From positions 1 to 41,780 of the IMG/VR virus record IMGVR_UViG_3300044625_000278: a stretch of 41,780 nt of DNA; one strand, given 5' to 3'. Of the stretch, positions 907 to 13,658 are shown piece by piece (the stretch's first letter is position 1; every line of letters begins with the position of its first letter). The position numbers and the translations under genes are program-made. The notes under the pieces were generated by a model. That model made no database searches, was not told where the DNA came from, and was given only the letters and a program-made list of their open reading frames with translations. The DNA is from a virus.

Positions 907-980
907 GGTCTCATAGCTCAGCTGGATAGAGCAATTCACTTCTAATGAATAGGTCACAGGTTCGAATCCTGTTGGGACTA
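907..980 (+). tRNA. tRNA-Arg (anticodon UCU)
   Basis: A complete cloverleaf can be folded: acceptor GGTCTCA with TGGGACT (two G-U pairs), D arm GCTC/GAGC, anticodon stem ATTCA/TGAAT around loop CTTCTAA (anticodon TCT), T arm ACAGG/CCTGT around TTCGAAT, discriminator A. The CCA end is not encoded. It reads AGA and AGG; AGA is by far the commonest Arg codon in the neighbouring genes, so the tRNA plausibly supports phage translation. It lies between small protein genes and is probably processed from their transcript. Confidence 0.95.
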
Positions 981-1015
981 CTATTATTTTTATTTATTCA
1001 CTTAAAATTCTGATT

Positions 1016-1336: not shown

Positions 1337-1544
1337 AATCTTTACATCAGTATTAGGTTTCAATTTTGAACTTAATCTGGTGGACAATGATGGTCAACCT
1401 ATTAGAACAGGAGCAAGGAGGGTAGATTACTTATCCTCTGAGACTCCTAATGTAGGTACCAAAATTGGTGGAGAATCATGGTTCACTAATTTTAATGAAC
1501 CTTTGTTAAGTAAAATTAGAGATTACAGAAGGAGAAATGACTAA
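1326..1544 (+). CDS. Hypothetical protein, about 72 aa
   Basis: Not recognised. A short protein, probably beta-rich in the first half (FTSVLGFNFELNLVDNDG) with a basic C-terminus (RDYRRRND). The GTG at 1326 gives the protein MESKIF and an 11-base overlap with the upstream gene; a TTG at 1320 in the same frame is the alternative start. It overlaps the next gene by 8 bases. The tight overlaps on both sides support it being real. Confidence 0.55.
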   Translation: MESKIFTSVLGFNFELNLVDNDGQPIRTGARRVDYLSSETPNVGTKIGGESWFTNFNEPLLSKIRDYRRRND

Positions 1545-1968
1545 AATCAAAGTAGAACTAGAAGAAACAGATTTATTTAATGCTATTAAGAAGATCCTTG
1601 ATCATCCTAATAGAGTAGAAATAGCAAGAGCATTAACTAGTATTATTGCACCTCATGAAAAACTAACATCTATATTCTTTAAGACATACTTTGGTGGTTC
1701 TGCACCACCAGTATTACCTGAAGGAACCATGGTTACTGTAAATCCAAATAAATTGAGTTACAAAACCAATGTAGAAGGTATGAAAAGACTTGGCTTACTT
1801 AATATTAGTGGTCATGCAACTGCTATAATCAAAGAATTCAGAGGTTTTCATGAGAGCCACAATTATTATGTAAACTTTATGAATGTTGATGACAATGATA
1901 ATAAATCATATGAAGACACAGGATTCATAAATTATCAAGATGTTATAAGTGTAATAGAAGAGCTTTAA
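1537..1968 (+). CDS. Hypothetical protein, 143 aa
   Basis: Not recognised. The N-terminal half is helical (DLFNAIKKILDHPNRVEIAR, about residues 12-31). The second half has the look of a small beta-barrel of SH3/KOW type: EGTMVTVNPNKLSYKTN, then GHATAIIKEFRGFHE and alternating hydrophobic strands to the end. Such folds often bind nucleic acid or protein, but no function can be given. It is the last gene before a strong terminator and so probably closes the operon that contains the tRNA. Confidence 0.65.
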   Translation: MTKIKVELEETDLFNAIKKILDHPNRVEIARALTSIIAPHEKLTSIFFKTYFGGSAPPVLPEGTMVTVNPNKLSYKTNVEGMKRLGLLNISGHATAIIKEFRGFHESHNYYVNFMNVDDNDNKSYEDTGFINYQDVISVIEEL

Positions 1969-2011
1969 AGATAGTATATCTGTTGGTATGCTTTTCCTAA
2001 CAAAGGAGTAT

Positions 2012-2039
2012 GGGAGGGACTAATAATCCCTCCCCTTTT
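2012..2039 (+). terminator. Rho-independent terminator
   Basis: GGGAGGG (2012-2018) pairs perfectly with CCCTCCC (2028-2034), loop of 9 bases, followed by C and TTTT. It stands 43 bases after the stop of the preceding gene and closes the first transcription unit. The plus-strand tail is short, so some read-through is likely. Confidence 0.85.
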
Positions 2040-2131
2040 CCTTGTTTAGCTATATAATGTGAAATAATAAACACTAGTTTAAGCTATGTAAGATTTAATA
2101 TCATACATTTACTAAACTTTATGTGTATAGA

Positions 2132-2401
2132 ATGTTATATCAGCTACCAAATGGTAAGGTTATTTATTTAACAGTTGAGCAATATCTTGAGCTCACTCAT
2201 GAAGACATTCAATATCTTATGTCTATTGATTTTGGTGAACACATTCTAAATCCTTTTACTGATTCTGCTGTTGTACAAAATACAAAAGAACAGTATTATG
2301 ACTTTGATTACTATCCAGATGATGATAGCTTAGAAGAAAGAGCATCAGATGATGAACCATTTGATGATATAATAGATTTATCAAATACTTCTGATATATA
2401 A
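2132..2401 (+). CDS. Acidic hypothetical protein, about 89 aa
   Basis: Not assigned to a named family. The N-terminal half (MLYQLPNGKVIYLTVEQYLE, then THEDIQYLMSIDFGEH) looks like a small conserved phage protein; the C-terminal 35 residues are very acidic (DDDSLEERASDDEPFDDI). I prefer the ATG at 2132, which places the conserved-looking LPNG motif near the N-terminus; a GTG at 2123 adds three residues. It stands between a terminator upstream and paired inverted repeats downstream, as a single-gene unit. Confidence 0.65.
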   Translation: MLYQLPNGKVIYLTVEQYLELTHEDIQYLMSIDFGEHILNPFTDSAVVQNTKEQYYDFDYYPDDDSLEERASDDEPFDDIIDLSNTSDI

Positions 2402-2450
2402 TATTGCATTAGCAATAAACACTTACTATTAGCAAGAGTAACTAATAGTA
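2402..2450. promoter_or_regulatory. Two tandem inverted repeats in an intergenic region
   Basis: TATTGC (2402-2407) and GCAATA (2412-2417) form a 6-bp arm with a 4-base loop. Directly after it TACTATTAG (2424-2432) and CTAATAGTA (2442-2450) form a perfect 9-bp inverted repeat with a 9-base spacer. Neither is followed by a T-run, so a terminator is unlikely. The position, 44 bases before a probably well-expressed gene, fits an operator or a 5' mRNA hairpin. The role is inferred from symmetry and position only. Confidence 0.45.
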
Positions 2451-2493
2451 TAGTAATCTACTCACATTTTCATTTACTATTTAATTTATTGTT

Positions 2494-2967
2494 ATGAATA
2501 CAAAAGTTATTGTATTGGCAGATGATGCCACAAAAAGTGTTATTAACCTATCAAAGAATCCTGAATTTGGATACATTAGAGTTAAGCAAACAAGATTTTT
2601 AACTGATGAAAAGACTGGTTTCTTAACTGCAAGACCTATTACTGCATTAGTAACTGCTCCTATTGATGATTTAAAAGAAGCAGCATTTTATGAAGGTCAA
2701 GAACTTAAAGGTAAAATTGTTATTGAAGAGTCTTTGACTCCATTTAACAAAAAGAATCCTGAGCGTGACCTTAAAGTTGCAGGTAAAACAGGTATTGTGT
2801 GCCGTTTAGAAGGTTCACCTATTTACCGTAGAACAAGATTTACATTCAATGATCAAGCAAATGATACTTGGGTACAACATGATAATGTATCTGAGCTACG
2901 TAATGCTTATCAAGAAGAAGAGAAAGTTTCTGCAATGAAACCTAATGAAGACTTTTCTGTTCAATAG
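2494..2967 (+). CDS. Hypothetical protein, 157 aa; beta-rich, possible OB-like fold
   Basis: Function unknown. The sequence suggests a compact beta-rich domain (KVIVLADDATKSVINL; FGYIRVKQTRFLTDE; ITALVTAPIDDL; LKGKIVIEESLTPF; GIVCRLEGSPIYRRTRF) with aromatic and basic residues in strands, and a polar C-terminal tail (about residues 135-157). An OB-like nucleic-acid-binding fold is possible, but this is a guess from pattern, not a match. The gene stands alone between paired inverted repeats and a strong terminator with a GAAA loop, an arrangement expected of a highly expressed single gene. Confidence 0.7.
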   Translation: MNTKVIVLADDATKSVINLSKNPEFGYIRVKQTRFLTDEKTGFLTARPITALVTAPIDDLKEAAFYEGQELKGKIVIEESLTPFNKKNPERDLKVAGKTGIVCRLEGSPIYRRTRFTFNDQANDTWVQHDNVSELRNAYQEEEKVSAMKPNEDFSVQ

Positions 2968-2995
2968 CAGAAAATTGTTGATTGATGTGTGATTA

Positions 2996-3017
2996 GGGGG
3001 TAGAAATACCCCCTTTT
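2996..3017 (+). terminator. Rho-independent terminator with GAAA loop
   Basis: GGGGGTA (2996-3002) pairs perfectly with TACCCCC (3007-3013) around a GAAA tetraloop, followed by TTTT. It ends the single-gene unit upstream and lies 8 bases before the next start codon. Confidence 0.9.
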
Positions 3018-3024
3018 CTATTTT

Positions 3025-3525
3025 ATGATTAAACCAATGTATATTATGGAAAAGCTAAAGAAACAGGTAAGAAATTACCAGTTGAGATCACAAACTGTGA
3101 TGTCATATGAACAAGATGGGTATTCTTCCTATCAGAATTATCTCTACAAGAGAGCACTCTATGGTTTAGATGCTCTTACAGAGAAAGAACTTGCTACTAT
3201 GTGTAGTAAGAAAAAACAACGGATTATTAATGTTTACAAACGTGCACAGGTTACACTTAATAAGTTTAAACAGCATGTAACTATTAAATATTCCAATACA
3301 ATCTTTGAAACTCTGTTTCCAAACAGTCCAATTACACAGTTTTTATTGGCTGATACTGAGACAGATGAGAAGTTTAAGAACACTTTAACTTTTAAAGATT
3401 TAGGTATTGAAAAGCAAGATATTATTGCTATCTTTATTGCTGAAGGCATCTTACCAAAAAACTTTTTTGATTTAAAAGATGCACCATTAGCATTACCTAG
3501 ATTAAAACATGAAGTCAAAGCTTAA
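3025..3525 (+). CDS. Hypothetical helical protein, 166 aa
   Basis: Not recognised. Basic and strongly helical (residues about 8-95: many Lys, Arg, Gln and Tyr, including KELATMCSKKKQRIINVYKR), followed by a less charged C-terminal part ending with LPRLKHEVKA. Three in-frame ATGs (3025, 3037, 3046) could be the start; the first is given. The high net positive charge and position in front of an HNH nuclease fit a nucleic-acid-associated role, which is inference. It overlaps the next gene by 17 bases. Confidence 0.65.
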   Translation: MIKPMYIMEKLKKQVRNYQLRSQTVMSYEQDGYSSYQNYLYKRALYGLDALTEKELATMCSKKKQRIINVYKRAQVTLNKFKQHVTIKYSNTIFETLFPNSPITQFLLADTETDEKFKNTLTFKDLGIEKQDIIAIFIAEGILPKNFFDLKDAPLALPRLKHEVKA

Positions 3526-3919
3526 AGAATGTGATGGTTGTCAAAAGATGACTGTTATATGGAAGAATTCTGAGGGATTTAAATTCTGCCGTTATTGCTG
3601 GAGTTGCCAAAAAGCCATTAATAGTGACAGTGCACAGAAACCAAACGACTATAAAGTCCCTCAGGTCTCTTCTAAAAAGAAAAAGAAAGATGTTGAGTAT
3701 CTCAAACTGAGAGAAAGATTTCTTACTGAAAATCCAATATGTCAGGTCTCTGTAGCCGGTTGTATGAATGGTAGTACTGATGTGCACCATAAATTTGCCG
3801 GCTCCAACAGAGATGCTTTCTATTTGGTACAGTCTACATGGTTGAGCGTATGTAGAAACTGTCATGATTGGATTCATGCTCATCCTGCAGAGGCTAGAAT
3901 ACTGAACTATTTAAAATGA
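3509..3919 (+). CDS. HNH-type endonuclease with N-terminal zinc ribbon
   Basis: Two metal-binding parts are visible. Residues 8-33 hold Cys8, Cys11, Cys27, Cys30 and Cys33, a zinc ribbon. Residues about 78-123 hold an HNH-like core: Cys78 and Cys85, the catalytic-type DVHHKFAG (His93, His94), then CRNCHDWIH (Cys115, Cys118, His119, His123). This order matches zinc-containing HNH nucleases of phages (NinG-like and homing types). A Lys-rich linker (55-60) joins the parts. Phage HNH proteins act in recombination, packaging or as homing nucleases; nothing here decides between these. The gene overlaps its upstream neighbour by 17 bases, so it belongs to that operon. Confidence 0.8.
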   Translation: MKSKLKECDGCQKMTVIWKNSEGFKFCRYCWSCQKAINSDSAQKPNDYKVPQVSSKKKKKDVEYLKLRERFLTENPICQVSVAGCMNGSTDVHHKFAGSNRDAFYLVQSTWLSVCRNCHDWIHAHPAEARILNYLK

Positions 3920-3948
3920 TTTTATTTACTGATTAAAAAATTATGATT

Positions 3949-4680
3949 ATGAACTCAAAAGTTAACATTAAGTACAGCAAAGACTATGAAAAATTCTTAT
4001 TCTTAGATAATAATAGAATTTTGAACCCAGGACACGTACAAACAATGATTGAAAGTATACGTACAATGGGTGTAATTAGACCTGTAGTATGTATTGAAAC
4101 AGATGCCATTTCTGGAAAGAAACAGAGATATATTACTGATGGTCAACACTTGTTTACTGCTCTTGTAGCAGAAGAATTAGAGATCCCATACATTGTGCTC
4201 AATGTAGAAGATGAGATTGAATTGGTTGTTAAAATGGCAAAGATGAACAATTCATCAAAGTCATGGACACTTCTAAACTATGTGAATGCATTTAAACCTT
4301 ATCTACCTGATTATCAGAAGTTATTTAAGATGAGAAACAAGTATAATATTGAGCCATTAATGTTGGCTGCAATATGTACTCGTGGTACCTCAGCAGTAGT
4401 TTCTGGTTCTAGATTGATTAAGTCTGGACATTTTAAGATTACTAATCCTGAAGCTCAGGAAATGGCTAAAGCATTTAATGATTTCTTCTTAAAGATTGGT
4501 AGAGCTGACCGTTGGGTTAAACACCAATTCTTACAAGTATTTATGCGTGCATGGGGTACTTATGATCATGATAAAGCATTAGCAAATCTTGATAAACATA
4601 TCAAGACTGTTAAAGCTATGAGTGACACTGGTGCTGCAGAAGCATTTATTAGCAGAAACATTTTCAATTTAACTAAATAA
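3949..4680 (+). CDS. ParB/sulfiredoxin-fold (ParB-like nuclease domain) protein
   Basis: Residues 20-90 match the ParB/Srx-type N-terminal domain: NRILNPGHVQTMIESIRTMG (a helix that in ParB proteins follows the first strand), IRPVV, then ITDGQHLFTALVAEELEIPY in place of the classical GxRRxxA box. The remaining 150 residues are helical with no clear HTH. ParB-like domains bind or hydrolyse nucleotides and occur in DNA partition, nucleases and many phage proteins of unknown role. It overlaps the SF2 helicase gene by one base (TAATG), so the two are probably made together. The start used is the second of two nearby ATGs (3943, 3949), in the frequent ATTATG context. Confidence 0.8.
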   Translation: MNSKVNIKYSKDYEKFLFLDNNRILNPGHVQTMIESIRTMGVIRPVVCIETDAISGKKQRYITDGQHLFTALVAEELEIPYIVLNVEDEIELVVKMAKMNNSSKSWTLLNYVNAFKPYLPDYQKLFKMRNKYNIEPLMLAAICTRGTSAVVSGSRLIKSGHFKITNPEAQEMAKAFNDFFLKIGRADRWVKHQFLQVFMRAWGTYDHDKALANLDKHIKTVKAMSDTGAAEAFISRNIFNLTK

Positions 4681-5774
4681 TGGAAAGAGAAGAGATTCAA
4701 GAACAAGCATTAAAAGCAACAGAAGGGAGACGGAGATGTTCCGTAGTATTAGGCACAGGGGTCGGTAAGACCCTTGTAGGCCTATTACATATTGAGAGAA
4801 ATACTAATGCTATGCAAAATGTATTAGTAGTTGCTCCAAAGAAATCTATTTTTCAGTCTTGGTCTGATGATGCTGTGAAGTTTGGTAAACAAGATTTGTT
4901 AGAGAGAATTACTTTCTCTACATATATTGGATTACCAAAGAGAGATCCAAATGCATATGATTATGTATACTTAGATGAATGTCATTCACTTCTTGATTCT
5001 CATAGAGCATTCCTTGATGTGTATAAAGGTGGAATCCTGGGTTTAACTGGGACTCCACCTAAACACAAAGGATCTGAGAAAGGAATGATGGTTGGTCAAT
5101 TCTGTCCTGTAGCTTATACATTTAAAGCTGATGATGCAATTGAGAATGGTATCATTAATGACTATCAAATCATTGTACATGAGCTTCAATTAAATAAGTG
5201 TAAAGGTTATCAGGCTGTAATGAAGAACAAATCTTTTGTTACCTCAGAGTATGATAATTATGTTTACTGGTCTAGAAGAATTGATGTAGGTTCTGGTAAT
5301 ATGCATATGCTCCGGGTTATGAGAATGAAAGCTCTTATGGAGTATTCTACTAAAGAAAAGTATACTAAAGAACTAATGAAAAGTATTAATACAAAGTGTA
5401 TTGTCTTTGCTAATACTCAAGAGCAAGCTGATAAACTATGTAGATTTAGTTACCATAGTGGTAATAAAGATTCTGAAGATAACTTACTGTTATTTAAAGA
5501 AGGCAAGATCAAACAATTATCCTGTGTACTGCAGTTAAATGAAGGTATTAATATACCGGAATTGAGACAAGGCATTATCATGCATGCGTATGGTAATGAG
5601 AGAAAAGCAGCACAGAGAATTGGTAGATTGCTCAGACTTAATCCAGATGAGAAAGCTATTGTACATATACTATGTTATAAGGGTACAGTAGATGAGAAAT
5701 GGGTTAAAGAAGCTCTTGAGGGATTTGACCAAGATAAGATAGTTTGGAGAAATTATGATTTAAAGTTAAATTAG
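4680..5774 (+). CDS. Superfamily 2 DNA/RNA helicase (DExH type)
   Basis: All core SF2 motifs can be read: motif I LGTGVGKT (24-31), motif II DECH (99-102), motif III LTGTPP (122-127), motif V LNEGINIPEL (286-295) and motif VI QRIGRLLR (312-319). At 364 residues it is a minimal two-RecA-domain helicase without large accessory domains, similar in plan to UvsW/RAD25-type enzymes; crAss-like phages usually carry a helicase of this general kind. Likely roles are fork remodelling or recombination-dependent replication. The one-base overlap with the ParB-like gene and the 4-base gap to the ClpS gene place it in the middle of an operon. Confidence 0.88.
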   Translation: MEREEIQEQALKATEGRRRCSVVLGTGVGKTLVGLLHIERNTNAMQNVLVVAPKKSIFQSWSDDAVKFGKQDLLERITFSTYIGLPKRDPNAYDYVYLDECHSLLDSHRAFLDVYKGGILGLTGTPPKHKGSEKGMMVGQFCPVAYTFKADDAIENGIINDYQIIVHELQLNKCKGYQAVMKNKSFVTSEYDNYVYWSRRIDVGSGNMHMLRVMRMKALMEYSTKEKYTKELMKSINTKCIVFANTQEQADKLCRFSYHSGNKDSEDNLLLFKEGKIKQLSCVLQLNEGINIPELRQGIIMHAYGNERKAAQRIGRLLRLNPDEKAIVHILCYKGTVDEKWVKEALEGFDQDKIVWRNYDLKLN

Positions 5775-5778
5775 CACA

Positions 5779-6033
5779 ATGGAACTACCAGAAGATCACA
5801 AACTTATACTGTATAATGATGATACACATAGTTTTGCATATGTGATAGCATGTTTAATTAAATACTGCGGTCATGAACCACAACAAGCAGAACAATGTGC
5901 ATTGGTTGCTGATCTTGCTGGTCAGTGTACCATAAAACATGGTTGTTGGGCTCAAATAGATACAATGGCTGATTTTCTTCAAGGAGTGGGTCTAAAAGTA
6001 AAAATAGAACCTTATGAAGGCGATATGCATTGA
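5779..6033 (+). CDS. clpS: ClpS-like adaptor of the ClpAP/ClpCP protease
   Basis: The 84 residues align without gaps to the ClpS core: LILYNDDTHSFAYVI (residues 9-23; E. coli ILVNDDYTPMEFVI), QQAEQCALVADLAGQC (35-50), and a final strand GLKVKIEP. ClpS binds N-terminal degrons and hands substrates to ClpA or ClpC. The binding-pocket residues Asn13 and Asp14/Asp15 (Asn34, Asp35, Asp36 in E. coli) are kept, but the His that contacts the substrate amino group (His66 in E. coli) is Asp45 here. The long N-terminal extension is missing. Phage ClpS could redirect host proteolysis or shield host substrates. It overlaps the next gene by 20 bases. Confidence 0.82.
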   Translation: MELPEDHKLILYNDDTHSFAYVIACLIKYCGHEPQQAEQCALVADLAGQCTIKHGCWAQIDTMADFLQGVGLKVKIEPYEGDMH

Positions 6034-6289
6034 TAGCAGTAACAAACCAGCTAAAGTACCTATTGAACAATGGGTAAAAGAGGGTGAGACTTACACTATT
6101 ATTAAAATAGTAAAGATGGGATTACAAGATGGTAGATATGGTGTACTACTTAAAGAAGTACAGATGTCTGCTGATTGTTTTCCATATGAATACTATGATG
6201 CTGAAAGATTTATTCCACTTGATATTAAATTACATCAACTTGAAGAAGAAAAAGAAGAAGTCTTAGAGGCAGATTTAGAATTAATATAG
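6014..6289 (+). CDS. Hypothetical protein, 91 aa, possible SH3-like fold
   Basis: Not recognised. Beta-strand pattern in residues 1-70 (VKEGETYTIIKIVKM; GRYGVLLKEVQM; FPYEYYDAERFIPLD) suggests a small barrel like those of SH3-type phage proteins; the last 20 residues are very acidic (EEEKEEVLEADLE). It starts inside the 3' end of the ClpS gene (20-base overlap) and ends 4 bases before the next gene, which suggests coupled translation. Confidence 0.65.
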   Translation: MKAICIDSSNKPAKVPIEQWVKEGETYTIIKIVKMGLQDGRYGVLLKEVQMSADCFPYEYYDAERFIPLDIKLHQLEEEKEEVLEADLELI

Positions 6290-6293
6290 TTTT

Positions 6294-6749
6294 ATGGCAG
6301 ATTATACAATAGAAGACATTCTAAAAGAATGTGAAGTTCTTGCTGTGCAAAATAAGAGTGCGGCTAAGAAAAGAGAAAGAATGTATCTTGACAGAAGAAA
6401 CTATCTTATAGGCATATTACATTATAAGTATGGTAAGAGCTCAACTTTTATTGCTGATATATTTGGAATGGATGGTTCATCTATTAGAATAGCAAAAAGA
6501 CATGCTTATACTTTACTTAATTATAATGATATAAGTTTTGCAGCTAATGCCTGTGAGTATATTCAAAAGTTTCCATATGATTTTCCATATGCTGGTTCTA
6601 AACAACATAGAGGTACTACTGTAGTAGTTTCACTTGATAGAGCTTTGTATAAGAAAATAAAAGCATATGGTAATCTTGTTGGAGATGCTAAGATAGATGT
6701 TACAATTAAAAACCTACTTAAAAAAGCAATTAAGCTATGGGAAGAATGA
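6294..6749 (+). CDS. DNA-binding protein with DnaA-C-like HTH and ribbon-helix-helix-like C-terminus
   Basis: Residues about 37-75 (YLIGILHYKYGKSSTFIADI, then FGMDGSSIRIAKRHAYTLL) resemble the C-terminal HTH of DnaA, where the sequence DHSTVxHA lies in the recognition helix; here it is DGSSIRIAKRHA. Residues about 108-148 (TTVVVSLDRALYKKIKAYG followed by a second helix) look like a ribbon-helix-helix unit: one strand and two helices. Both assignments are by pattern only. A protein with two DNA-binding modules could be a regulator or an origin-binding protein. It is in the helicase/ClpS operon and its stop overlaps the next start (ATGA). Confidence 0.55.
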   Translation: MADYTIEDILKECEVLAVQNKSAAKKRERMYLDRRNYLIGILHYKYGKSSTFIADIFGMDGSSIRIAKRHAYTLLNYNDISFAANACEYIQKFPYDFPYAGSKQHRGTTVVVSLDRALYKKIKAYGNLVGDAKIDVTIKNLLKKAIKLWEE

Positions 6750-7003
6750 AAGAAATATACATGCGTGTTATGTATGAGAATGATGGTCAGGTTCCAAAAG
6801 AAATGACCATTTCAGACATGGCTCGTATGAAAGAATTAGAAATCTATAATTGGGAAGAGTATGAAAGAGAACAAGAGAAAATTAGAGTTTTCAGAGTTAA
6901 ACAAGAAAATCCAAGAGAGATTACAAAGGTTGCACAAGTCAGAGAATATTGGGAAGAGGAACTCAGGAAAGGTAAAATCAGAAGGGCTACAAAAGGTGAA
7001 TAA
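6746..7003 (+). CDS. Hypothetical charged protein, 85 aa
   Basis: Not recognised. Very rich in Glu, Lys and Arg, mostly helical (IYNWEEYEREQEKIRVFRVK; VREYWEEELRKGKIRRATKG), likely coiled coil. The ATG at 6746 overlaps the previous stop as ATGA, the classic coupling geometry; an ATG at 6737 in the same frame is possible. It ends TAATG, sharing a base with the next gene. Confidence 0.6.
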   Translation: MKEIYMRVMYENDGQVPKEMTISDMARMKELEIYNWEEYEREQEKIRVFRVKQENPREITKVAQVREYWEEELRKGKIRRATKGE

Positions 7004-7209
7004 TGAAGAAGGGGATTAGCCACTTTATTAAATACACATTGGTATGGATAAGCCAAAACTTGTCCATACCTTTTTGGATGGTAGGTCATGTACATCTTAG
7101 CGTAAATGTTTATAAAGACATACATGAAATACTTATGTCCTTTGGTATGAATATAATTGTAGCAGTTGGATTTATTATTGACTATAAAGAAACAAAGAAT
7201 GAAAAATAA
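7003..7209 (+). CDS. Small membrane protein, 68 aa
   Basis: Not recognised. Hydrophobic stretches at about residues 8-30 (FIKYTLVWISQNLSIPFWMV) and 42-60 (ILMSFGMNIIVAVGFII) predict two membrane segments or re-entrant helices, with a positive C-terminus. It begins at the TAATG junction with its upstream neighbour and overlaps the next gene by 11 bases. Confidence 0.55.
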   Translation: MKKGISHFIKYTLVWISQNLSIPFWMVGHVHLSVNVYKDIHEILMSFGMNIIVAVGFIIDYKETKNEK

Positions 7210-7402
7210 AGTAGGAGTATTTATATTAGCATTACTACCAATAATAATTGGAGCAATGTTGCTTTTTGGATATTTTAGATGTGTCTATAAAATGATAACA
7301 TGTAATTGGGAACCTGTTGGTAAAGCTGAGATAGTTTATACTATAGGTACATTTACTGGCTTAGGTGCCATAATTGGATATATTCCCATTGAAGATAAAT
7401 AA
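7199..7402 (+). CDS. Small two-pass membrane protein, 67 aa
   Basis: Not recognised. Two clear hydrophobic segments: VGVFILALLPIIIGAMLLFG (about 5-24) and VYTIGTFTGLGAIIGYIP (about 46-63), joined by a short loop. The ATG at 7199 gives an N-terminus MKNKVGVF typical of inner-membrane proteins; an upstream in-frame ATG at 7166 would lie deep inside the previous gene. Last gene before the structured leader at 7401. Confidence 0.6.
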   Translation: MKNKVGVFILALLPIIIGAMLLFGYFRCVYKMITCNWEPVGKAEIVYTIGTFTGLGAIIGYIPIEDK

Positions 7403-7609
7403 ATCACAAAAAAGTGTCATTTTTGGCATATTTAACCGGTTAATAACCGATTATGTAGGCTAAAACCAGCATAAATTGTGATTTTTTCACAAAAAGATGA
7501 ATTAAGACATCATTAGAAAGGATAAGGGGTAAAAATTACCACATATGTTGAACATAAATGTAAACCTATAAGCTTACAAAACAGTTGAAAATTTAAACTT
7601 GTAGGCTTA
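7401..7609 (+). promoter_or_regulatory. Structured non-coding leader with nested inverted repeats
   Basis: The 220 bases at 7403-7622 hold no credible gene but several symmetric elements. AAATCACAA (7401-7409) pairs with TTGTGATTT (7476-7484), followed by a T-run, which could end the upstream operon. Inside that loop lies CGGTTA-A-TAACCG (7437-7449). Further down TAAGCTTACAA (7569-7579) pairs with TTGTAGGCTTA (7599-7609), and CCTATAAG (7565-7572) can instead pair with CTTGTAGG (7598-7605), so two exclusive folds exist. An A-rich stretch follows directly before the next start codon. Terminator, promoter region, regulatory RNA and origin are all possible. Confidence 0.5.
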
Positions 7610-7622
7610 AATAAAAAAAACA

Positions 7623-7790
7623 ATGAGTGAACCAGAAACAGGATGGGTAAGTGCTCTTATTAAGTGTGACTTATGTGGTTATGAGTCATTGTCAGTACAT
7701 CATGAGTCATGTGATAAGCTTGAGTGTGTTAACTGTGGGCGCATGTCTCACTATGAAGTTTTAGAATATTATACAAATGAAGAACTATGA
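7623..7790 (+). CDS. Small zinc-ribbon protein, 55 aa
   Basis: A short ORF with MSEPETGW at its N-terminus, then CDLCGY (Cys15, Cys18) and CVNCGR (Cys35, Cys38) separated by 16 residues: two CxxC knuckles as in treble-clef or rubredoxin-like zinc ribbons. Its role is unknown; such small zinc proteins in phages often modify host transcription or other host enzymes, which is inference. The ATG is preceded by an A-rich leader (AAAAAAAACA) typical of starts here, and the stop overlaps the next start (ATGA). Confidence 0.7.
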   Translation: MSEPETGWVSALIKCDLCGYESLSVHHESCDKLECVNCGRMSHYEVLEYYTNEEL

Positions 7791-7909
7791 AACTAAACAG
7801 AGAAGACCGTAGAGAAGAGATGGCTGGTATTGGCACGATGGTACTATTAATTTTTGTTACTATATGTGCAATTGGTGCTACTTTACAAGTAATTTTTAAT
7901 TTATTTTAG
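7787..7909 (+). CDS. Tiny single-pass membrane protein, 40 aa
   Basis: A charged N-terminus (MKLNREDRREE) is followed by one membrane helix (GTMVLLIFVTICAIGATLQV, about residues 16-35). It is coupled to the zinc-ribbon gene by an ATGA overlap and followed after one base by another tiny membrane protein. Not recognised. Confidence 0.55.
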   Translation: MKLNREDRREEMAGIGTMVLLIFVTICAIGATLQVIFNLF

Positions 7910-7910
7910 T

Positions 7911-8000
7911 ATGGAAAATTATCCAAAATGGGTAAACAATCTTGTTTACTTTTTAGCAGGCATTGGCTTCGGTCATTTATTATTTAACTTTATATTCTAA
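7911..8000 (+). CDS. Tiny single-pass membrane protein, 29 aa
   Basis: MENYPKWVNN is followed by one hydrophobic helix (LVYFLAGIGFGHLLFNFIF). The start lies one base after the preceding stop, and the stop three bases before the next start, so the spacing fits a real gene despite the very short length. No family recognised. Confidence 0.45.
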   Translation: MENYPKWVNNLVYFLAGIGFGHLLFNFIF

Positions 8001-8003
8001 GTT

Positions 8004-8189
8004 ATGCCGGATATGTCAATGTGTAAAGGAACAGATTGTCCATTAAAAGACACATGTTATAGGTATAAGGCTATAGCAAGTGAATTTAGACAGTCATACT
8101 TCTTTGATCTACCTTACAATAAAGAAGAAGAGAAATGTGATTATTATTGGCCAACTAAAATATTAGAAAATGGGAAAGATAATTCTTGA
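8004..8189 (+). CDS. Small cysteine-rich protein, 61 aa
   Basis: Not assigned a function. Four cysteines are arranged as MCKGTDCPLKDTCYRY (Cys7, Cys12, Cys18) plus a late KCDYYW, a pattern seen in small phage proteins that probably bind zinc or an iron-sulfur cluster; this is a pattern judgement. No membrane segment. It overlaps the next gene by 20 bases. Confidence 0.65.
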   Translation: MPDMSMCKGTDCPLKDTCYRYKAIASEFRQSYFFDLPYNKEEEKCDYYWPTKILENGKDNS

Positions 8190-8406
8190 GTTTGATTCTA
8201 TTGAAGAAAAGGAAGATGCAAGAGATGCATTAGATGGTCCTAGATGGAAACTAGTTGTTTGGGATATTGACCAAAAACTACGTGAGATAACCAAATATGG
8301 TTATGTTGACAAGAAAGAAGCTACTGATCAAGAAAGAGATTTAGCTGATAGACTTAGAAAAGAATTAAGAGAAATATTAGCAGACTATAATTTAAATCTA
8401 GAATAG
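8170..8406 (+). CDS. Hypothetical protein, 78 aa
   Basis: Function unknown. Compact alpha/beta pattern: strand KIILEFDS, helix KEDARDALDG, strand WKLVVWDIDQKLREITKYG, then a helix ending RKELREILADYNLNLE. The DALDGPRWKLVVWDIDQKLR segment looks like a small conserved phage family, but I can name no member. It is translationally coupled to the cysteine-rich gene upstream through a 20-base overlap. Confidence 0.65.
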   Translation: MGKIILEFDSIEEKEDARDALDGPRWKLVVWDIDQKLREITKYGYVDKKEATDQERDLADRLRKELREILADYNLNLE

Positions 8407-8407
8407 T

Positions 8408-8587
8408 ATGAATGTAAACAAGAAAGACTACAGAATTGTAGAAGTACAAGATGGTTATCAAACCAAGTATGCAGTAAAGAAAAGATTCTTATGGTTCTTT
8501 TGGAAGACTGTTAAGAATAATGCAGGATTTGATATTGAGTATACCTCAAGAAGAGCTGCACAATCTTACATTAACTTTCTAAAGTGA
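8408..8587 (+). CDS. Small basic protein, 59 aa
   Basis: Starts one base after the preceding stop (TAGT-ATG). Beta-hairpin-like N-terminus (DYRIVEVQDGYQTKYAVKKR) with aromatic residues (FLWFFWK at about 27-33) and a final helix (RRAAQSYINFLK). The layout resembles small proteins that carry a query sequence plus one helix, but no family is recognised. It is the last of the small-gene run before the radical SAM gene. Confidence 0.6.
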   Translation: MNVNKKDYRIVEVQDGYQTKYAVKKRFLWFFWKTVKNNAGFDIEYTSRRAAQSYINFLK

Positions 8588-8630
8588 TAATTTCTACATG
8601 TGTTAGGAAAGTACAGCGGATTAAGAGATT

Positions 8631-9500
8631 ATGAGTGTTGTAGAAAAAGTCACTAGAAAGAGTATGATTATTAGACCAAGTGGGAGGAGCACTGATTACA
8701 TTGCTCCTTCTTTTGGTCATGGCTGTTTGTATAACTGTACTTACTGTTATATGAAGAGACATAAGCCGGAAGGATTAACTGTAGCTAAGAATACTATGGA
8801 TATCCTGACAGAAATTAATTCCCATGCATTCTTTGCAGATGTAGAGAAACCAAATCAGACTGGAGATTATATTACATATGATATCAGTTGTAATGAGGAC
8901 TTTGCTCTACATGCTAAGTATCATGATTGGAGAACAATCTTTAAGTTCTTTAGAGATCATCCACTTGCTATGGGTTCATTTGCTACTAAGCATGTAAATA
9001 AAGAACTATTGGCATTTAACCCTGAAGGTAAAGTTAGAATTAGATTTAGTCTGATACCCTATGAGTTATACAAGCATCTTGAACCTAATACAAGTACTAT
9101 TCACGAGAGACTTTTAGCTATACCACAGTTTTTAAATGCTGGTTATGAAGTTCATTTGAACTTTAGTCCTGTTATTGTACATGATAATTGGTTACAGCAT
9201 TATATGAGTTTGTTTAACAATGTAGATAGAATAGCCAAAACACATGGCTGGGCTAATGATAGAGTTAAAGCTGAGGTAATCTTTTTAACTCATAATGAAG
9301 AGAAGCATAGATATAATGTAGAGCACAAGTTGCCAGGTGAAGAGTTTCTTTGGACACCTAAAATACAAGAAGGTAAGATATCTCAGTATGGTGGTAGAAA
9401 TGTAAGATATGAGCATAATAGAAAGTCAGACTACATTAAACAGTTTATTCAAATACATGATAGTATAATACCTTGGAATACCATCAGATATATCTTTTAA
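8631..9500 (+). CDS. Radical SAM protein, spore photoproduct lyase-like
   Basis: The N-terminal part holds GCLYNCTYCYM with Cys32, Cys36 and Cys39, the CX3CX2C motif that binds the 4Fe-4S cluster and S-adenosylmethionine. The surrounding sequence (APSFGHGCLYNCTYCYMKRH) and later regions (RFSLIPY; VHLNFSPVIVHDNW) are like the spore photoproduct lyase group, which repairs thymine dimers without light. At 289 residues it is slightly shorter than Bacillus SPL. Family membership is fairly clear; that it repairs UV lesions is inference, since SPL-like proteins have varied substrates. The next gene starts one base after its stop. Confidence 0.8.
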   Translation: MSVVEKVTRKSMIIRPSGRSTDYIAPSFGHGCLYNCTYCYMKRHKPEGLTVAKNTMDILTEINSHAFFADVEKPNQTGDYITYDISCNEDFALHAKYHDWRTIFKFFRDHPLAMGSFATKHVNKELLAFNPEGKVRIRFSLIPYELYKHLEPNTSTIHERLLAIPQFLNAGYEVHLNFSPVIVHDNWLQHYMSLFNNVDRIAKTHGWANDRVKAEVIFLTHNEEKHRYNVEHKLPGEEFLWTPKIQEGKISQYGGRNVRYEHNRKSDYIKQFIQIHDSIIPWNTIRYIF

Positions 9501-9501
9501 A

Positions 9502-9921
9502 ATGGAAAAGAAAATAACACATGAAATGCTGGAATTATCAGCACAGATTGCAAAAGAGCACTATGAATTAACAGAGAGTGTAGATAGAAACTTAAACTAC
9601 CTATGGTATATGTATCATAAGGGTAGTAAAGTTGGGACATTCCGTCCTTTTGTATATATGGCAGAATTACAACTGCTAAAGAGAATGGGCTACATTAATG
9701 ATGATGAAATTAAAAACATGATTAGAATGTTAGAATCATCTGATGAAGAGAACCTGCATATGGTTACTCTATCAATTAAGAGCTTCAGAAATTTAAGAAT
9801 TCTAGAACACGGTGAATACAGTAAAGTAAGTCAAGTCTATTGGAAAATTGCTAAAGACTACCCTCATGAAATACTAAATCATGAAGTATTTATGCAGACT
9901 ATGTCACCAGCAAACAATTAA
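9502..9921 (+). CDS. Hypothetical helical protein with SSDxEN repeat motif, 139 aa
   Basis: Not recognised as a named family. Fully helical. Residues about 70-91 (NMIRMLESSDEENLHMVTLS) contain the motif L/MxSSDxEN followed by a helix, which recurs in two other proteins of this window (genes at 18925 and 21703) and resembles a HEAT-like repeat unit. Such units bind protein or nucleic acid. The gene follows the radical SAM gene after one base and is followed by another small gene after 3 bases. Confidence 0.65.
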   Translation: MEKKITHEMLELSAQIAKEHYELTESVDRNLNYLWYMYHKGSKVGTFRPFVYMAELQLLKRMGYINDDEIKNMIRMLESSDEENLHMVTLSIKSFRNLRILEHGEYSKVSQVYWKIAKDYPHEILNHEVFMQTMSPANN

Positions 9922-9924
9922 GAT

Positions 9925-10179
9925 ATGACAGAACAACAATTAATAGACCTTGGATTTAACAAGGTAGAAGTTAAAGACTCAGAAAGTCAGAATGGTTATG
10001 ATTATTTTTTCTACACATTAGATGTCTTTAATAACTTGACTCTTATGTCAGTAGACAGTGATCAAGTGAAAGAAGAAAATTGGTACGTGTATAATTTAGA
10101 TTGGCCTGATCAGTTTAAACTTCAGACAAAGGATCAAGTTCTTCAATTCCTTCATTCTGTAGGTCACTCTTTTTCATGA
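9925..10179 (+). CDS. Hypothetical protein, 84 aa
   Basis: Not recognised. Small alpha/beta protein with a helix at the start (EQQLIDLGFNKVEV), strands rich in aromatic residues (YDYFFYTLDV; LTLMSVDSDQ; WYVYNLDW) and a final helix. Last gene of this plus-strand run. Its last 65 bases overlap the 3' end of the minus-strand gene at 10115, an unusual convergent overlap in which both frames appear genuine. Confidence 0.65.
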   Translation: MTEQQLIDLGFNKVEVKDSESQNGYDYFFYTLDVFNNLTLMSVDSDQVKEENWYVYNLDWPDQFKLQTKDQVLQFLHSVGHSFS

Positions 10180-10426
10180 GTTTAGCTTTTTCAGATAGCA
10201 TTGCAGATAGAATAAGAATAGAACCTGATTCCCAAGCTTCATCTATTTCTTTAGATAGCAGATCAAATGGCATAGTAGTTTTTAGTATTTCTCCTGTACG
10301 GAGATGTATTTTACTACCAGCATCTGGATTTCTTGGATTAACAAAAGATATTCTTGTTATGTGAGTAACATTAAGATGCTCAATGTATGGGCCATCTTCA
10401 TCTTTAAATTCAATTGGTAGAAACAT
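10115..10426 (-). CDS. Hypothetical protein, 103 aa
   Basis: Not recognised. Beta-rich first half (EDGPYIEHLNVTHITRISFV; GSKIHLRTGEILKTTMPFD) and a helical second half. It resembles small proteins with an SH3-like or PilZ-like fold, without any decisive motif. Downstream partner of the metallophosphoesterase gene: the two share one base (stop/start junction at 10426). Together they form a minus-strand island within plus-strand genes. Confidence 0.65.
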   Translation of the reverse strand: MFLPIEFKDEDGPYIEHLNVTHITRISFVNPRNPDAGSKIHLRTGEILKTTMPFDLLSKEIDEAWESGSILILSAMLSEKAKLMKKSDLQNEGIEELDPLSEV

Positions 10427-11454
10427 CAGACTATTTGGTTACCTTCTATTTTGTAATTGCTAACTTGTACTAAGTTACCATTTCTTTTTAGAATAGCAAA
10501 CCCATGATTCCATTCATTTATTTCTAAATATTCTGGAGTGAGTTCACATAAACAACCAAGGCTATATCCACGGATAGTTGTAGAGTCATCAGGACCATAT
10601 ACTCTTTGTGAGCTAGAACTTGTTTTGTGAAAGTGATTTATAAGACAATTAGTCTTTAATCTCATTAGAGCAGTGCGGGCTGGTACTACACCACCTGCAC
10701 CAGGGATCTTGTCTCCATGTTCTATAAGGAAATCACCAAAGACAACTTTAGATCTAAATGGAATATATTGTACACCATATTCAGCTACATGTAGTAGTAC
10801 ATCTAGTCTGAATTCATCCATGTCTAATAGTTCTGATGCCTTAACTCTAAGGTATCTTTCAAATCTATTCTCATGGTTACCTGGGATAAAGTAAATAGGA
10901 ATACCAGGGAATCTGGATCTGCAGTAATCTAAGAATTGTCTACCTGCTTCTATTTCCTGTTTGAAGTGAACCATTCTTGGGTCTTTCTCATGGAAAGAGA
11001 GTTGGTAAAAGTCTAACATGTCACCGTTGATAAGTAGAGATTCTATGTTTTGCTTTTCCATTTCATCAAATGCTGCTTCTATAGCATCATTATCTTGATA
11101 TGGTATATGAAGGTCACCAATAACTCCTACTGAGTTGCAACCTGATGGGAATATAAAAGTATCACGCTTAGTTGCATAAGACTCTGGTAGAAATTTTTCT
11201 TTCATATTTATTTCAACTTTAAGTTCTTTTTGAAATTGTTTATTATGTAAGCTTTTTCTATGTGCTTTGCCATATTGACCTCTATAGTATCTTACTTTAC
11301 CATAGACAGATTCAAGTGAATTAAGAACAGGATTTTCAGAATATATTTTTCTGGCTAGAGTTTTTGAAGGAGCTTCTGGGAATCTTTCTAGGTAATCTAA
11401 TACTATCTGAGTATCTTTACTTATCTGATTATTATTTCCGGGAATTCTATCCAT
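10426..11454 (-). CDS. Calcineurin-like metallophosphoesterase with N-terminal HTH-like region
   Basis: The phosphoesterase motifs appear in order: GDLH (113-116), NGDMLD (143-148), GNHENR (192-197), HGD (246-248) and NHFH (273-276), which together bind two metal ions. Substrate is unknown; the family includes nucleases (Mre11/SbcD), phosphatases and cyclic-nucleotide hydrolases. Residues 1-65 (TQIVLDYLERFPEAPSKTLA, then a region with SVYGKVRYYRGQYGKAHRK) resemble a winged HTH, so the enzyme may bind DNA. It begins 30 bases from the divergent plus-strand gene at 11485, an AT-rich gap that must hold both promoters if both are expressed on their own. Confidence 0.82.
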   Translation of the reverse strand: MDRIPGNNNQISKDTQIVLDYLERFPEAPSKTLARKIYSENPVLNSLESVYGKVRYYRGQYGKAHRKSLHNKQFQKELKVEINMKEKFLPESYATKRDTFIFPSGCNSVGVIGDLHIPYQDNDAIEAAFDEMEKQNIESLLINGDMLDFYQLSFHEKDPRMVHFKQEIEAGRQFLDYCRSRFPGIPIYFIPGNHENRFERYLRVKASELLDMDEFRLDVLLHVAEYGVQYIPFRSKVVFGDFLIEHGDKIPGAGGVVPARTALMRLKTNCLINHFHKTSSSSQRVYGPDDSTTIRGYSLGCLCELTPEYLEINEWNHGFAILKRNGNLVQVSNYKIEGNQIV

Positions 11455-11484
11455 ATCTATTAATAATATACAAAAAATCAGCTT

Positions 11485-11859
11485 ATGTTTACTACTAAAT
11501 TAGTTAAACGCGGAGGTAAGTTAGTTTATCCTGATGATAAATCCAAATTAAATTTTCAGATCTTTATTGATAAACTGGCTGATGGACAGCAGGTTGAAGT
11601 CTTTATGGGCTTAACTTCTGACAATGCCTCATTAGCTCAGATTGCTAAAGTGCATGCATGTATACGTACATTAGCACAAGAATCTGGCTATACTTTTGAT
11701 GAAATGAAAAGAATTATTAAGACCCATGCTGGTCTTTGTTATGATGCAGGAGATGCAGAGATTTGTAAATCTTTTGCTGACTGCAGTAAAATGGAATTGG
11801 CTCTAGCAATAGAGTCCTGTGTAGAAATAGGAAGAGACTTTAATCTTAATCTTGCTTAG
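11485..11859 (+). CDS. Hypothetical protein, 124 aa, possibly NinB-like
   Basis: Helical protein after an N-terminal strand region. Residues about 50-120 (QIAKVHACIRTLAQESGYTF, then DEMKRIIKTHAGLCYDAG and KSFADCSKMELALAIESC) resemble, by order of helices and the KSF...ELxxAIE pattern, NinB-like single-strand DNA-binding recombination proteins of phages. This is a weak match from memory of the pattern, so the name is not given as a symbol. It is divergent from the phosphoesterase operon, and its last 14 bases overlap the minus-strand gene at 11846. Confidence 0.6.
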   Translation: MFTTKLVKRGGKLVYPDDKSKLNFQIFIDKLADGQQVEVFMGLTSDNASLAQIAKVHACIRTLAQESGYTFDEMKRIIKTHAGLCYDAGDAEICKSFADCSKMELALAIESCVEIGRDFNLNLA

Positions 11860-12157
11860 GTTCAACATAACCTTCATCACCTGGTTGAAGAACTTCTTTT
11901 TCTTCATATTGATCAGTTGCTTTAGCTTGTGTTTCAATTTCTGCAAGTAATAAGGCAACTGTATAAAAAGATCTTTGAAGATCATCTAAATCAGCATAAG
12001 GCTTATTCATGATTTCTGTAAAATATTCATCATTTTGTTTTTGACCAATTTGCTGAAATAAATAAAATGATAGAGCTTTAGCCATCATGTAATAATTCTT
12101 ATTTACATTAATACTGATAGTTGCATCAGATTTGATTTCTTTTATTTTAATAGCCAT
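11846..12157 (-). CDS. Hypothetical protein, 103 aa
   Basis: Not recognised. Short N-terminal strand (AIKIKEIKSDATISINV), then helices (YYMMAKALSFYLFQQIG; DLQRSFYTVALLLAEIETQ) and an acidic C-terminal tail (EEKEVLQPGDEGYVEPKQD). The ATG at 12157 gives a good N-terminus (MAIKIKEI); an upstream in-frame ATG at 12178 would extend into the 30-base divergent gap. It is a single-gene minus-strand unit, convergent with the gene at 11485 (14-base overlap) and divergent from the uracil-DNA glycosylase gene. Confidence 0.65.
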   Translation of the reverse strand: MAIKIKEIKSDATISINVNKNYYMMAKALSFYLFQQIGQKQNDEYFTEIMNKPYADLDDLQRSFYTVALLLAEIETQAKATDQYEEKEVLQPGDEGYVEPKQD

Positions 12158-12190
12158 TATATTATACTTTTTTAACAAATATACATGATT

Positions 12191-12895
12191 ATGACTAATA
12201 TATTAGACTGCAATGATTATAAACAAAAAATATTTAATAAACTTGAACCTAGTGGTTGGGGCAGAGTTCTTAAACCTTTTATATTTAGTTTAGAGTTTGA
12301 AAAGATTCTTACTGACTTATATAATCTTTCAAACAGTGGTAAAAGATTTACTCCTGTATTGAAAGATGTGTTTAGAGCCTTTGAGGAATGTCCTTATGAT
12401 GAACTTAAAGTAGTCATAGTTGGACAAGATCCTTATCCCACAATTGGTGTAGCAGATGGTATTGCATTTAGTTGTAGTAAATCTGAGAAAGAACAACCTT
12501 CTCTAAGATTTATTCTTGATGAAGTTGAGAAACTATACCCTGACGGGTATAAAAGACCCTTAGACCTATCAAAATGGTCCCGACAGGGTATACTTATGCT
12601 AAATACAGCTCTTACAACTGAAGTAGGTAAGATTGGTAAGCATTATGAAATCTGGGCTCCGTTTGTAGCTTATGTGTTTGATTATCTAAAGAACTTTCAT
12701 CCAGGACTAGTTTATGTCTATATGGGTAAAAAATCTCAAGAGTGGGCAGACATGTGTGGAGAAAATTGTACTAAATTTATTGTCTCACATCCGGCAAGTG
12801 CTGTATACAATGGTAGCAAATGGGATTCTAAAGGTGTCTTTGGAGAAGTTCGGGATACTGTACAGCATTTGTATAACTATAAAATCATTTGGTAA
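12191..12895 (+). CDS. ung: Uracil-DNA glycosylase, family 1-like
   Basis: The water-activating loop VGQDPYP (about residues 77-83 from this start; the family has GQDPYH), the uracil-pocket segment DGIAFS, the segment LMLNTALT and the DNA-intercalation loop SHPASAVYNG (family HPSPLS) are all present in the right order, and the length of 234 residues is typical. It removes uracil from DNA and starts base excision repair. The loop variant HPASAVY is unusual but keeps the catalytic His. It argues against a genome in which uracil replaces thymine. Start chosen at the second of two close ATGs (12185, 12191), in the ATTATG context. The next gene overlaps by one base (TAATG). Confidence 0.9.
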   Translation: MTNILDCNDYKQKIFNKLEPSGWGRVLKPFIFSLEFEKILTDLYNLSNSGKRFTPVLKDVFRAFEECPYDELKVVIVGQDPYPTIGVADGIAFSCSKSEKEQPSLRFILDEVEKLYPDGYKRPLDLSKWSRQGILMLNTALTTEVGKIGKHYEIWAPFVAYVFDYLKNFHPGLVYVYMGKKSQEWADMCGENCTKFIVSHPASAVYNGSKWDSKGVFGEVRDTVQHLYNYKIIW

Positions 12896-13482
12896 TGGAA
12901 GAAATCTTTTTTAAGATAAGTAAGATGGGTTTAACACCTAACATGTTTTATGTTTTATATTGCATGCATAATAAAATTGTTCCTGATAAATCTATTAACA
13001 CATCTCTTGAAGTAGCCAAATTATTATCAGGTAATTACCTTACAGAATCCTTGGAATTGTCAGGGAATAGCCTTAAATTTATACAGGAAATTGATGGCTT
13101 CTTCAAGAAATCTAAGAAGAAAACTTCTAAGAATCTAATGGGGGATGACTTCCTAGACAATATTAAACTTTACAATGAATTGTTTCCAAAAGGTAAATTA
13201 CCTAGTGGTGTACCTGCAAGAGTAAATGTTAAGGGTCTTGAGAATGCTTTTAGATGGTTTTTTGAGAACTTTAGCTATTCATGGGATACTGTGTTAAAAG
13301 CTACTGATAAGTATGTAGATGAATATTCTATGAATAGATACAACTACATGAGAAACTCTCAATACTTTGTTAGAAAACAGAACACAGATAAAACCTGGGA
13401 TTCAACTCTAGCAACTTATTGTGATATGATTGAAGCAGATGATTATGAAGAACCAAACTATTTTAAAGAACACATTGTATGA
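12895..13482 (+). CDS. Hypothetical protein, 195 aa; possible replication accessory protein
   Basis: Function unknown. The N-terminal part is helical (MEEIFFKISKMGLTPNMFYV, then an HTH-like arrangement to about residue 60). A basic linker (KKSKKKTSKN, about 67-80) leads to a helical C-terminal domain with many aromatic residues (AFRWFFENFSYSWDTV; YVDEYSMNRYNYMRNSQYFV). This plan, with an N-terminal winged-helix-like part and a C-terminal helical domain, is shared by phage replication initiators and helicase loaders; its position two genes before the DnaB-like helicase fits but does not prove that. ATG at 12895 overlaps the previous stop as TAATG. Confidence 0.6.
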   Translation: MEEIFFKISKMGLTPNMFYVLYCMHNKIVPDKSINTSLEVAKLLSGNYLTESLELSGNSLKFIQEIDGFFKKSKKKTSKNLMGDDFLDNIKLYNELFPKGKLPSGVPARVNVKGLENAFRWFFENFSYSWDTVLKATDKYVDEYSMNRYNYMRNSQYFVRKQNTDKTWDSTLATYCDMIEADDYEEPNYFKEHIV

Positions 13483-13649
13483 TTAAAACCAAATTGTTTT
13501 TCATTGCATTAATAGGAAGCCTTGTTTCCTGGTTATTAGTTTATACTCTTCTTGTAGAGATGAACTTTGTACAATTTCTAGCAATTGAATTTATAGTGGG
13601 TTTATCTCACTACATCTATAATGATGTAAAAAGTAAGCTAACAACTTAA
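13479..13649 (+). CDS. Small two-pass membrane protein, 56 aa
   Basis: Two hydrophobic segments: LFFIALIGSLVSWLLVYTLL (about 6-25) and a second around 29-44 (NFVQFLAIEFIVGLSHYI). Its ATG overlaps the preceding stop (ATGA) and the stop lies 9 bases before the helicase gene. No family recognised. It interrupts the replication genes without disturbing their spacing, so it is likely translated with them. Confidence 0.6.
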   Translation: MIKTKLFFIALIGSLVSWLLVYTLLVEMNFVQFLAIEFIVGLSHYIYNDVKSKLTT

Positions 13650-13658
13650 TCCAAATGT

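Follow-up and report, generated by a model that had tools for sequence, protein, structure and literature searches.

What is the role of a structured 220-nt non-coding gap that opens a tiny-gene run in a crAss-like phage? A first-pass annotation of the window (the whole 41,780-nt stretch of DNA analysed here) had described nested inverted repeats and competing folds in this gap and had proposed a regulatory RNA, an operator cluster or a replication origin. Comparison with related loci partly supports that interpretation. The gap is probably the start of a swappable tiny-gene cluster, acting as a switch and exchange point and not as an RNA with competing folds.

Phage identity and gene surroundings

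We assign the window, as a fragment, to an environmental crAss-like phage because the 1150-aa product of 28819-32271 is ~23–28% identical to RNA-polymerase-associated proteins of Cellulophaga phage phi14:2 and Bacteroides crAss-like phages, and because close relatives of the window were found among IMG/VR contigs; a window protein is related to phi14:2 g065. Below 28.8 kb the plus strand carries genes for replication and recombination, and the window encodes a Sak4-like annealing protein (15238-15960) and also an exonuclease. The gap sits in this replication half, with small membrane-protein genes on one side and, on the other, the tiny-gene run, which ends before the gene for a spore-photoproduct-lyase-like radical-SAM protein (8631-9500; at least 600 matching stretches in viral contigs). 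It was rightly called the longest gap between genes, extending for 220 nt after the gene that ends at 7402: a scripted listing returned one longer gap, 11860-12184, and this is filled by a minus-strand ORF (11846-12178; ORF list, read by eye), so that the claim holds. The downstream genes, described earlier as a run of tiny zinc and membrane proteins, are indeed tiny and Cys-rich or hydrophobic (Table 1).

Elsewhere in the window, a very large minus-strand reading frame (33187-41775; 2862 aa counted from a GTG start and running off the end of the window) contains 2OG-Fe(II) oxygenase and NADAR domains and a below-cut-off match to ADP-ribosyltransferase, and a tRNA-Arg (anticodon TCT, 907-981) is the sole tRNA found. 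The 6294-6749 protein bears a by-eye likeness to DnaA domain IV; at the thresholds applied it matched neither PHROG nor Pfam. The 7003-7209 reading frame contains a terminator-like element, a 12-bp hairpin with TTTTT behind it (7041-7074), which is also present in relatives L149, L147 and L151.

Table 1. Features of the gap and its flanking genes (positions in the window)
Feature	Position	Strand	Description
Small membrane-protein gene directly upstream of the gap	7199..7402	+	ORF 7166-7402 from TTG; ATG at 7199 by eye
Module A	7411..7495	+	AT-rich imperfect hairpin; similarity borders at 7411 and 7495/7496
Module B	7513..7565	+	Conserved ~50-nt quasi-palindrome AAAGGATAAGGGGTAAAAATTACCACATAT...AAATGTAAAC, array head; 33-row alignment A3
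Module C	7566..7611	+	Optional insert with two TAAGCTTA-like palindromes, the competing folds of the first-pass annotation; alignment A4
A-rich leader before start codon	7608..7622	+	Degenerate copy of the array leader TAAACAACAAGAACA-ATG
First array gene	7623..7790	+	55-aa protein with two CxxC pairs; Lar similarity below cut-off
Array gene	7787..7909	+	40-aa hydrophobic protein, family 1, also in other phages' arrays
Array gene	7911..8000	+	29-aa hydrophobic peptide, family 15
Array gene	8004..8189	+	61-aa Cys-rich protein, PHROG 20586 (of unknown function)
Array gene	8170..8406	+	Family 0, present in most B-headed loci

Inverted repeats and fold of the gap

All of the nested inverted repeats named in the first-pass annotation were found in place. 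The outer repeat pairs AAATCACAA (7401-7409) with TTGTGATTT (7476-7484) and encloses the inner repeat CGGTTA (7437-7442), A, TAACCG (7444-7449). Towards the 3' end TAAGCTTACAA (7569-7579) pairs with TTGTAGGCTTA (7599-7609), in competition with CCTATAAG (7565-7572) and CTTGTAGG (7598-7605); the competition arises because TAAGCTTA, itself a palindrome, is present twice, the second copy having diverged to TAGGCTTA. For 7396-7625 the plus-strand fold has an energy of -44.5 kcal/mol (z -3.8), which none of 200 shuffles reached; the minus strand has z -2.6 (2 of 200 as good). Of 2085 plus-strand windows, 51 are at least as stable as the 84-nt hairpin 7401-7484, and of 1344 windows of similar GC, 12 are (roughly the top 1%), so that the stability of the hairpin is unusual, not extreme.

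Modular structure of the gap

BLAST comparison with relatives placed similarity borders at 7398-7406, 7408/7411, 7495/7496, 7512-7518, 7553-7572 and 7608-7622, and these recurring borders divide the gap into modules A, B and C and a start-codon leader. Of 76 alignment ends, 40 are no more than 4 nt from one of five borders, where a fraction of 0.198 would be expected; the figure is descriptive only, the borders having been picked from similar alignments. A further 13 HSP ends fall at 7398-7406, at the close of the upstream gene, where similarity to several relatives stops. The modules occur independently: among 60 distinct segments bounded by the 7003-family and radical-SAM genes, both A and B are present in 11, A alone in 7, B alone in 6 and neither in 36.

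Module A (alignment A1; 18 distinct sequences, window included) contains the perfect palindrome TTAACCGGTTAA (7432-7443) and TTGTGA-TTTTT-TCACAA (7476-7492). The outer AAATCACAA/TTGTGATTT helix is kept in only part of the relatives because its left arm (7401-7409) falls outside the conserved A core; where the upstream gene differs, this arm is replaced by other sequence. An exact 34-nt match to module C is present in 18 stretches of viral contigs. At the leader position two siblings of the window (L084, L093) carry AAATAACAAGAACAATG; in the window no sequence comes within 2 mismatches of the array leader. In another crAss-like lineage (L149 ~5895-5961; L169, L147, L151, L146) a different set of palindromes stands upstream of B, CTAATATATTAG in some and GTCACA...TGTGAC; CTAATATATTAG occurs once in the window, at 12195, within the start of the gene at 12185. 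The idea that a hairpin always occupies the slot upstream of B was rejected, other gaps of the same phages being equally structured (12 of 27 with z <= -1.7).

Tests for conserved RNA structure and replication origin

Neither A nor B matched Rfam, whose sole match in the window is a tRNA elsewhere, and nine related loci gave no Rfam match and no tRNA. Over the 18 A sequences paired cells amounted to 94.9%, against 94.8% in shuffles. One measure, cells changed on both sides, stood at 4 against a shuffled mean of 0.8, a value reached by 29 of 500 shuffles and depending on a single pair (columns 31-65; states G-C, G-U and A-U); the remaining four of the five pair measures for A were at shuffle level. 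For B (33 sequences, 30 distinct) pairing was 76.4% against 77.9% in shuffles, 497 of 500 of which paired at least as well, and for C (15 sequences, 7 distinct) neither competing helix exceeded shuffles. Sliding the partners by 1–3 columns lowered the percentage of paired cells in every case, as expected of any inverted repeat; at +1 the second C helix scored slightly higher for covariation than it did unshifted (0.163 vs 0.156). Since most of each element is invariant, little covariation is available and these counts argue only weakly against structure. The fold of the gap thus beats its shuffles, yet the pair counts over relatives show no convincing covariation; they rule against competing RNA folds for B and both C helices, less cleanly for A. 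Elements A, B and C appear to be conserved mainly as sequence.

GC skew, examined for an origin, shows no change at the gap and tracks gene direction: it is positive over the first 10 kb and becomes negative near 29 kb, the point at which the genes reverse direction. This, together with the patchy presence of the element among relatives, which often have the same flanking genes and lack it, speaks against the replication origin that had been suggested.

Distribution and conservation of module B

Module B recurs as a unit in fixed orientation, at one place per contig, in different phage groups and beside differing neighbours. Its loci were collected by pattern scans of viral contigs (50 stretches for B, 18 for C, 26 for A) and a profile search; some are overlapping stretches of one contig, and near-identical ones were merged by the sequence around B. 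The 89 loci recovered comprise 52 distinct around B, 25 crAss-like and 27 other as judged by shared genes, the latter group being defined by the absence of crAss-like genes and including short contigs. A search of 24 records with a model of B found one place each in all 20 records known to hold it; reverse-strand matches at the same place in four records reflect the palindrome, G011 gave one further weak match (E 0.012), and no convincing second copy was seen. Four records with the same flanking genes (G005, G013, G014, G016) gave no match, from which it follows that B is dispensable. By eye, L146 carries a half-copy of B (~690-745; E 4.3) before its second array gene.

Three of the non-crAss contigs (G001, G006, G008) were taken in pieces. 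The portal of G001 (66.9 kb), of an elemo-like podovirus kind, is 75.8% identical to that of a Manatee Spring phage and shares 47–50% identity with the portals of Flavobacterium elemo and Maribacter phages, and the G001 terminase belongs to PHROG 6681; the G008 portal is 34% identical to that of Nonlabens phage P12024, and the G006 portal has its best matches in PHROG 11226 and 12. When the whole 41.8-kb window was compared by blastn (E <= 1e-3) with 15 pieces of 10 other-phage contigs, one piece matched per contig. B or B+C was the sole DNA match to the window in 9 of the 10 (83–90% identity, 44–109 nt), and G001 had two short gene matches besides its B match. Among deeper crAss-like relatives (helicase 71–73% identical) B is still 79–83% identical and stands immediately after the 7003-family gene or one gene further. 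In crAss-like loci the gene upstream of B belongs to the 7202 or 7003 family or is some other small gene; in 23 of 27 non-crAss loci it is of one family (family 2), its last codons overlapped or abutted by B in 22 of these 23.

The centre of B is a 5-bp stem with a 3-nt loop, the outer two pairs being G-C in 32 of 33 sequences. In one of the 33 (L109:8982-9033) the 21-nt centre of B is inverted, differing from the consensus at 1 position in the inverted reading and at 8 in the forward one; a palindrome template switch or arm recombination is the likely origin of this flip, which suggests that the arms of B interact as DNA at least occasionally.

Beyond these contigs, the species-genome collection contained no match to a 28-base B pattern and, for a less strict 21-base pattern, two Spirochaete contigs, taken for chance; plasmids gave no match to B. 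Cultured phages gave no match to a 1.6-kb nucleotide query of the locus and nothing credible to an 81-base piece with B, the one hit being 25 bases of a Streptococcus phage (E 0.7; B end plus leader). A Racr-like RNA decoy of CRISPR repeats, considered as B is solitary and palindromic, was dismissed on finding no repeat-like match in genome scans. No description of module B was found in the portion of the literature searched, a statement that holds for that search only.

The gene array and its leaders

In 48 of the 52 loci a same-strand reading frame begins 0–118 nt after B, within 20 nt in 19 of the 48; in the other four no reading frame was found after B. The 48 first genes form 16 clusters (~14 if two pairs merged by the wider clustering count once) and include zinc-ribbon-like, hydrophobic, family 18 (MKTAVEW...) and family 0 (the 8170 gene) types, among others. 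They were re-clustered directly because ORF calling for the wider clustering was greedy and had missed some array genes. Family 0 is present in 29 of the 52 loci (21 crAss-like loci and 8 others have it no further than 1500 nt from B), and its member in the window, the 8170-8406 protein, has no PHROG match at threshold. Both phage groups have members of families 0, 1, 18, 61 and 70 no more than 1.5 kb from B, with best cross-group identities of 49–76%.

Leaders of the form TAAACAACAAGAACAATG or TAAATCAGAATAAGATG, counted with up to 3 substitutions permitted before ATG, stand before 59 of the 252 genes that lie no more than 1.5 kb from B and before 6 of 611 others (4 of 434 upstream, 2 of 177 further downstream; Fisher p 2e-27, the genes of related loci not being independent). 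They directly adjoin start codons and number 0–5 per source among those scanned. The interval between B and leader varies, holding nothing, C, or a stretch of 77, 92 or 118 nt. The 92-nt insert ends with a short GC hairpin and T run (e.g. L153:6196-6287) and the 118-nt insert with AGCCTT...AAGGCTTTTTTT, intrinsic-terminator-like by eye (L154:2128-2245), and from their letters both resemble a short terminated leader RNA. The 77-, 92- and 118-nt inserts fold no better than shuffles (z -0.63, -1.73 and 0.35); the C hairpin of the window has z -3.74.

Relation to known systems

The nearest known kind to the system of B plus leaders is the SAS/ESAS of cluster K mycobacteriophages, similar in working and not related by membership, whether in sequence or in copy number. 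In the published accounts SAS is a short conserved sequence at the starts of differing genes, with 11–19 copies per cluster K genome; it is reported as uncommon outside cluster K, and a similar set is present in Microbacterium cluster EF (PMC3203893, PMC7302621). Cluster K ESAS adds an inverted-repeat extension just upstream, an mRNA hairpin being little supported, and the function of SAS is given as unknown, its position suggesting expression control (PMC3203893, PMC7302621). The present leaders likewise adjoin start codons of differing gene families (59/252 vs 6/611, the window's own copy being degenerate), and B is likewise a quasi-palindrome, with a 3-nt centre, upstream of the leader. The differences are that B has one place per contig (20/20) and leaders are few per source and mostly in one array, that B is shared by phages of different groups, and that the SAS sequence GGGATAGGAGCCC is unlike the leader and B consensus, as compared by eye, unaligned.

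Three other systems bear comparison. Mosaic lambdoid phages carry boundary sequences between modules, short conserved stretches at the edges of exchangeable genes, and B resembles these in its position; it differs in being one directional palindromic unit that heads an array and is shared across portal families. Integron arrays combine a constant head element and exchangeable small gene cassettes with an integrase and att sites. A constant head and exchangeable small genes are found here too, whereas the scan of window proteins, which covered part of the genes, turned up no integrase, no att-like repeat was noticed after the genes, and exchange at the B array would go by homology. The promoters of the N4 virion RNA polymerase are small hairpins with a 5–7 bp stem and a 3-nt loop upstream of early genes; the centre of B is such a small stem with a 3-nt loop, but B is longer, single and apparently not restricted to phages with that polymerase.

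Function of module B and rival explanations

We propose, with a probability of about 0.45, that B is a transcription-start or control element that heads the cassette array and also anchors cassette exchange. Tiny accessory genes would then make up a hypervariable array with the gap as its non-coding head, and B would be a discrete cis-acting element, retained while both flanks are exchanged, that serves as promoter or operator and starts or controls transcription of the array. This reading fits the fixed direction of B, its position ahead of the first start codon, its conservation at one and the same spot in crAss-like relatives with helicases 71–73% identical and the terminator-like sequences that follow it in some phages; a terminator-like insert between B and the first gene (L154, L153) would make sense if transcription starts at B. 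Since unrelated phages share B, its reader would presumably be host-supplied, something common to the hosts of B-bearing phages. The constant B and the recurring leaders would offer homology for swapping cassettes between phages, plausibly by the phage's own Sak4-like annealing recombinase and exonuclease. Module A may be a lineage-specific add-on, an operator or a 3'-end hairpin, and module C an optional leader insert. The palindromes, fixed orientation and cross-phage conservation would fit a DNA-level control element; the operator cluster of the first-pass annotation survives to this extent, as a control element before the tiny genes whose function we infer.

Set against a promoter is the dispensability of B, 36 of the 60 distinct segments holding neither A nor B. 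In 22 of the 23 non-crAss loci with a family 2 gene upstream, the end of that gene overlaps or abuts B, so that B sits inside a gene string there. No promoter of the sigma-70 type rises above background: 89 promoter-like sites were counted in 1-16000, where shuffles gave 80.8 ± 8.2. Bacteroidota promoters have a -7/-33 motif, and this was not seen in a by-eye look. The unremarkable folds of the inserts after B and the degenerate leader of the window also weigh against the proposal.

Several rivals share part of this evidence. That B and the leaders act in RNA in the manner of SAS, as a conserved segment, either a 5' leader or intercistronic, that enhances translation or governs how the mRNA is processed, is doubtful. 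Start codons do follow B on the same strand at short distance in 48 of 52 loci (within 20 nt in 19 of the 48), leaders adjoin start codons, B can sit within a gene string, and the SAS authors infer a translation role from position; but B lacks covariation, 497 of 500 shuffles pairing at least as well, its distance to the start codon varies, and terminator-like hairpins may intervene. Fixed orientation, a near-invariant core through deep divergence and a single place per contig suggest selection, and for this reason we consider it unlikely that B is merely a homology boundary, alike because phages recombine there and free of any regulatory role, even though B or B+C is nearly the sole DNA match between otherwise dissimilar phages and has differing neighbours on both sides.

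A hairpin promoter for a crAss-like virion RNA polymerase, in the manner of phage N4, is very unlikely: the 5-bp stem and 3-nt loop at the centre of B have the shape of N4 promoters, the window encodes the phi14:2 g065 relative, and according to a review the crAss-like virion RNA polymerase drives early genes, but B has only one place per contig and is present in non-crAss contigs (G001, G006, G008) that gave no match to the RNAP-associated protein, a weak absence as G006 and G008 are <30 kb and all three possibly fragments. The first-pass reading of A, B and C as a regulatory RNA (riboswitch or attenuator) with competing folds we hold to be highly improbable. It can draw on the fold z of -3.8, the C hairpin z of -3.74 and the one A pair with G-C, G-U and A-U states; against it, Rfam gave no match, A, B and C show no convincing covariation, the modules occur separately, and hairpins are common in the other gaps of these phages (the 12 of 27 above). 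A replication origin or packaging site is barely credible, since the skew does not change, relatives with the same flanks lack the element, and B is common to phages with different replication or packaging genes, whatever its single place, AT-richness, palindromes and one DnaA-box-like TTTTTCACA seen by eye might suggest.

The preferred reading, of B as a control element and exchange anchor, could be extended further, in a form that we think possible and would sooner bet against: unrelated phages of one host group may share an accessory-gene docking system, made up of the 50-base head B and an 18-base leader, an integron-like array without integrase. CrAss-like, elemo-like and P12024-like phages would then draw tiny genes, perhaps for counter-defence, from a common pool, move them by homologous annealing and express them from the shared head.

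Implications

If the control-element and exchange-anchor reading is true, a 50-base sequence marks accessory-gene sites in several kinds of phage from environmental metagenomes. B could then be used to harvest accessory genes and to link phages that possibly share a host, and the locus would be a concrete case of unrelated phages exchanging genes via a shared non-coding element, the best-known parallels, SAS/ESAS, having been described without a known function.
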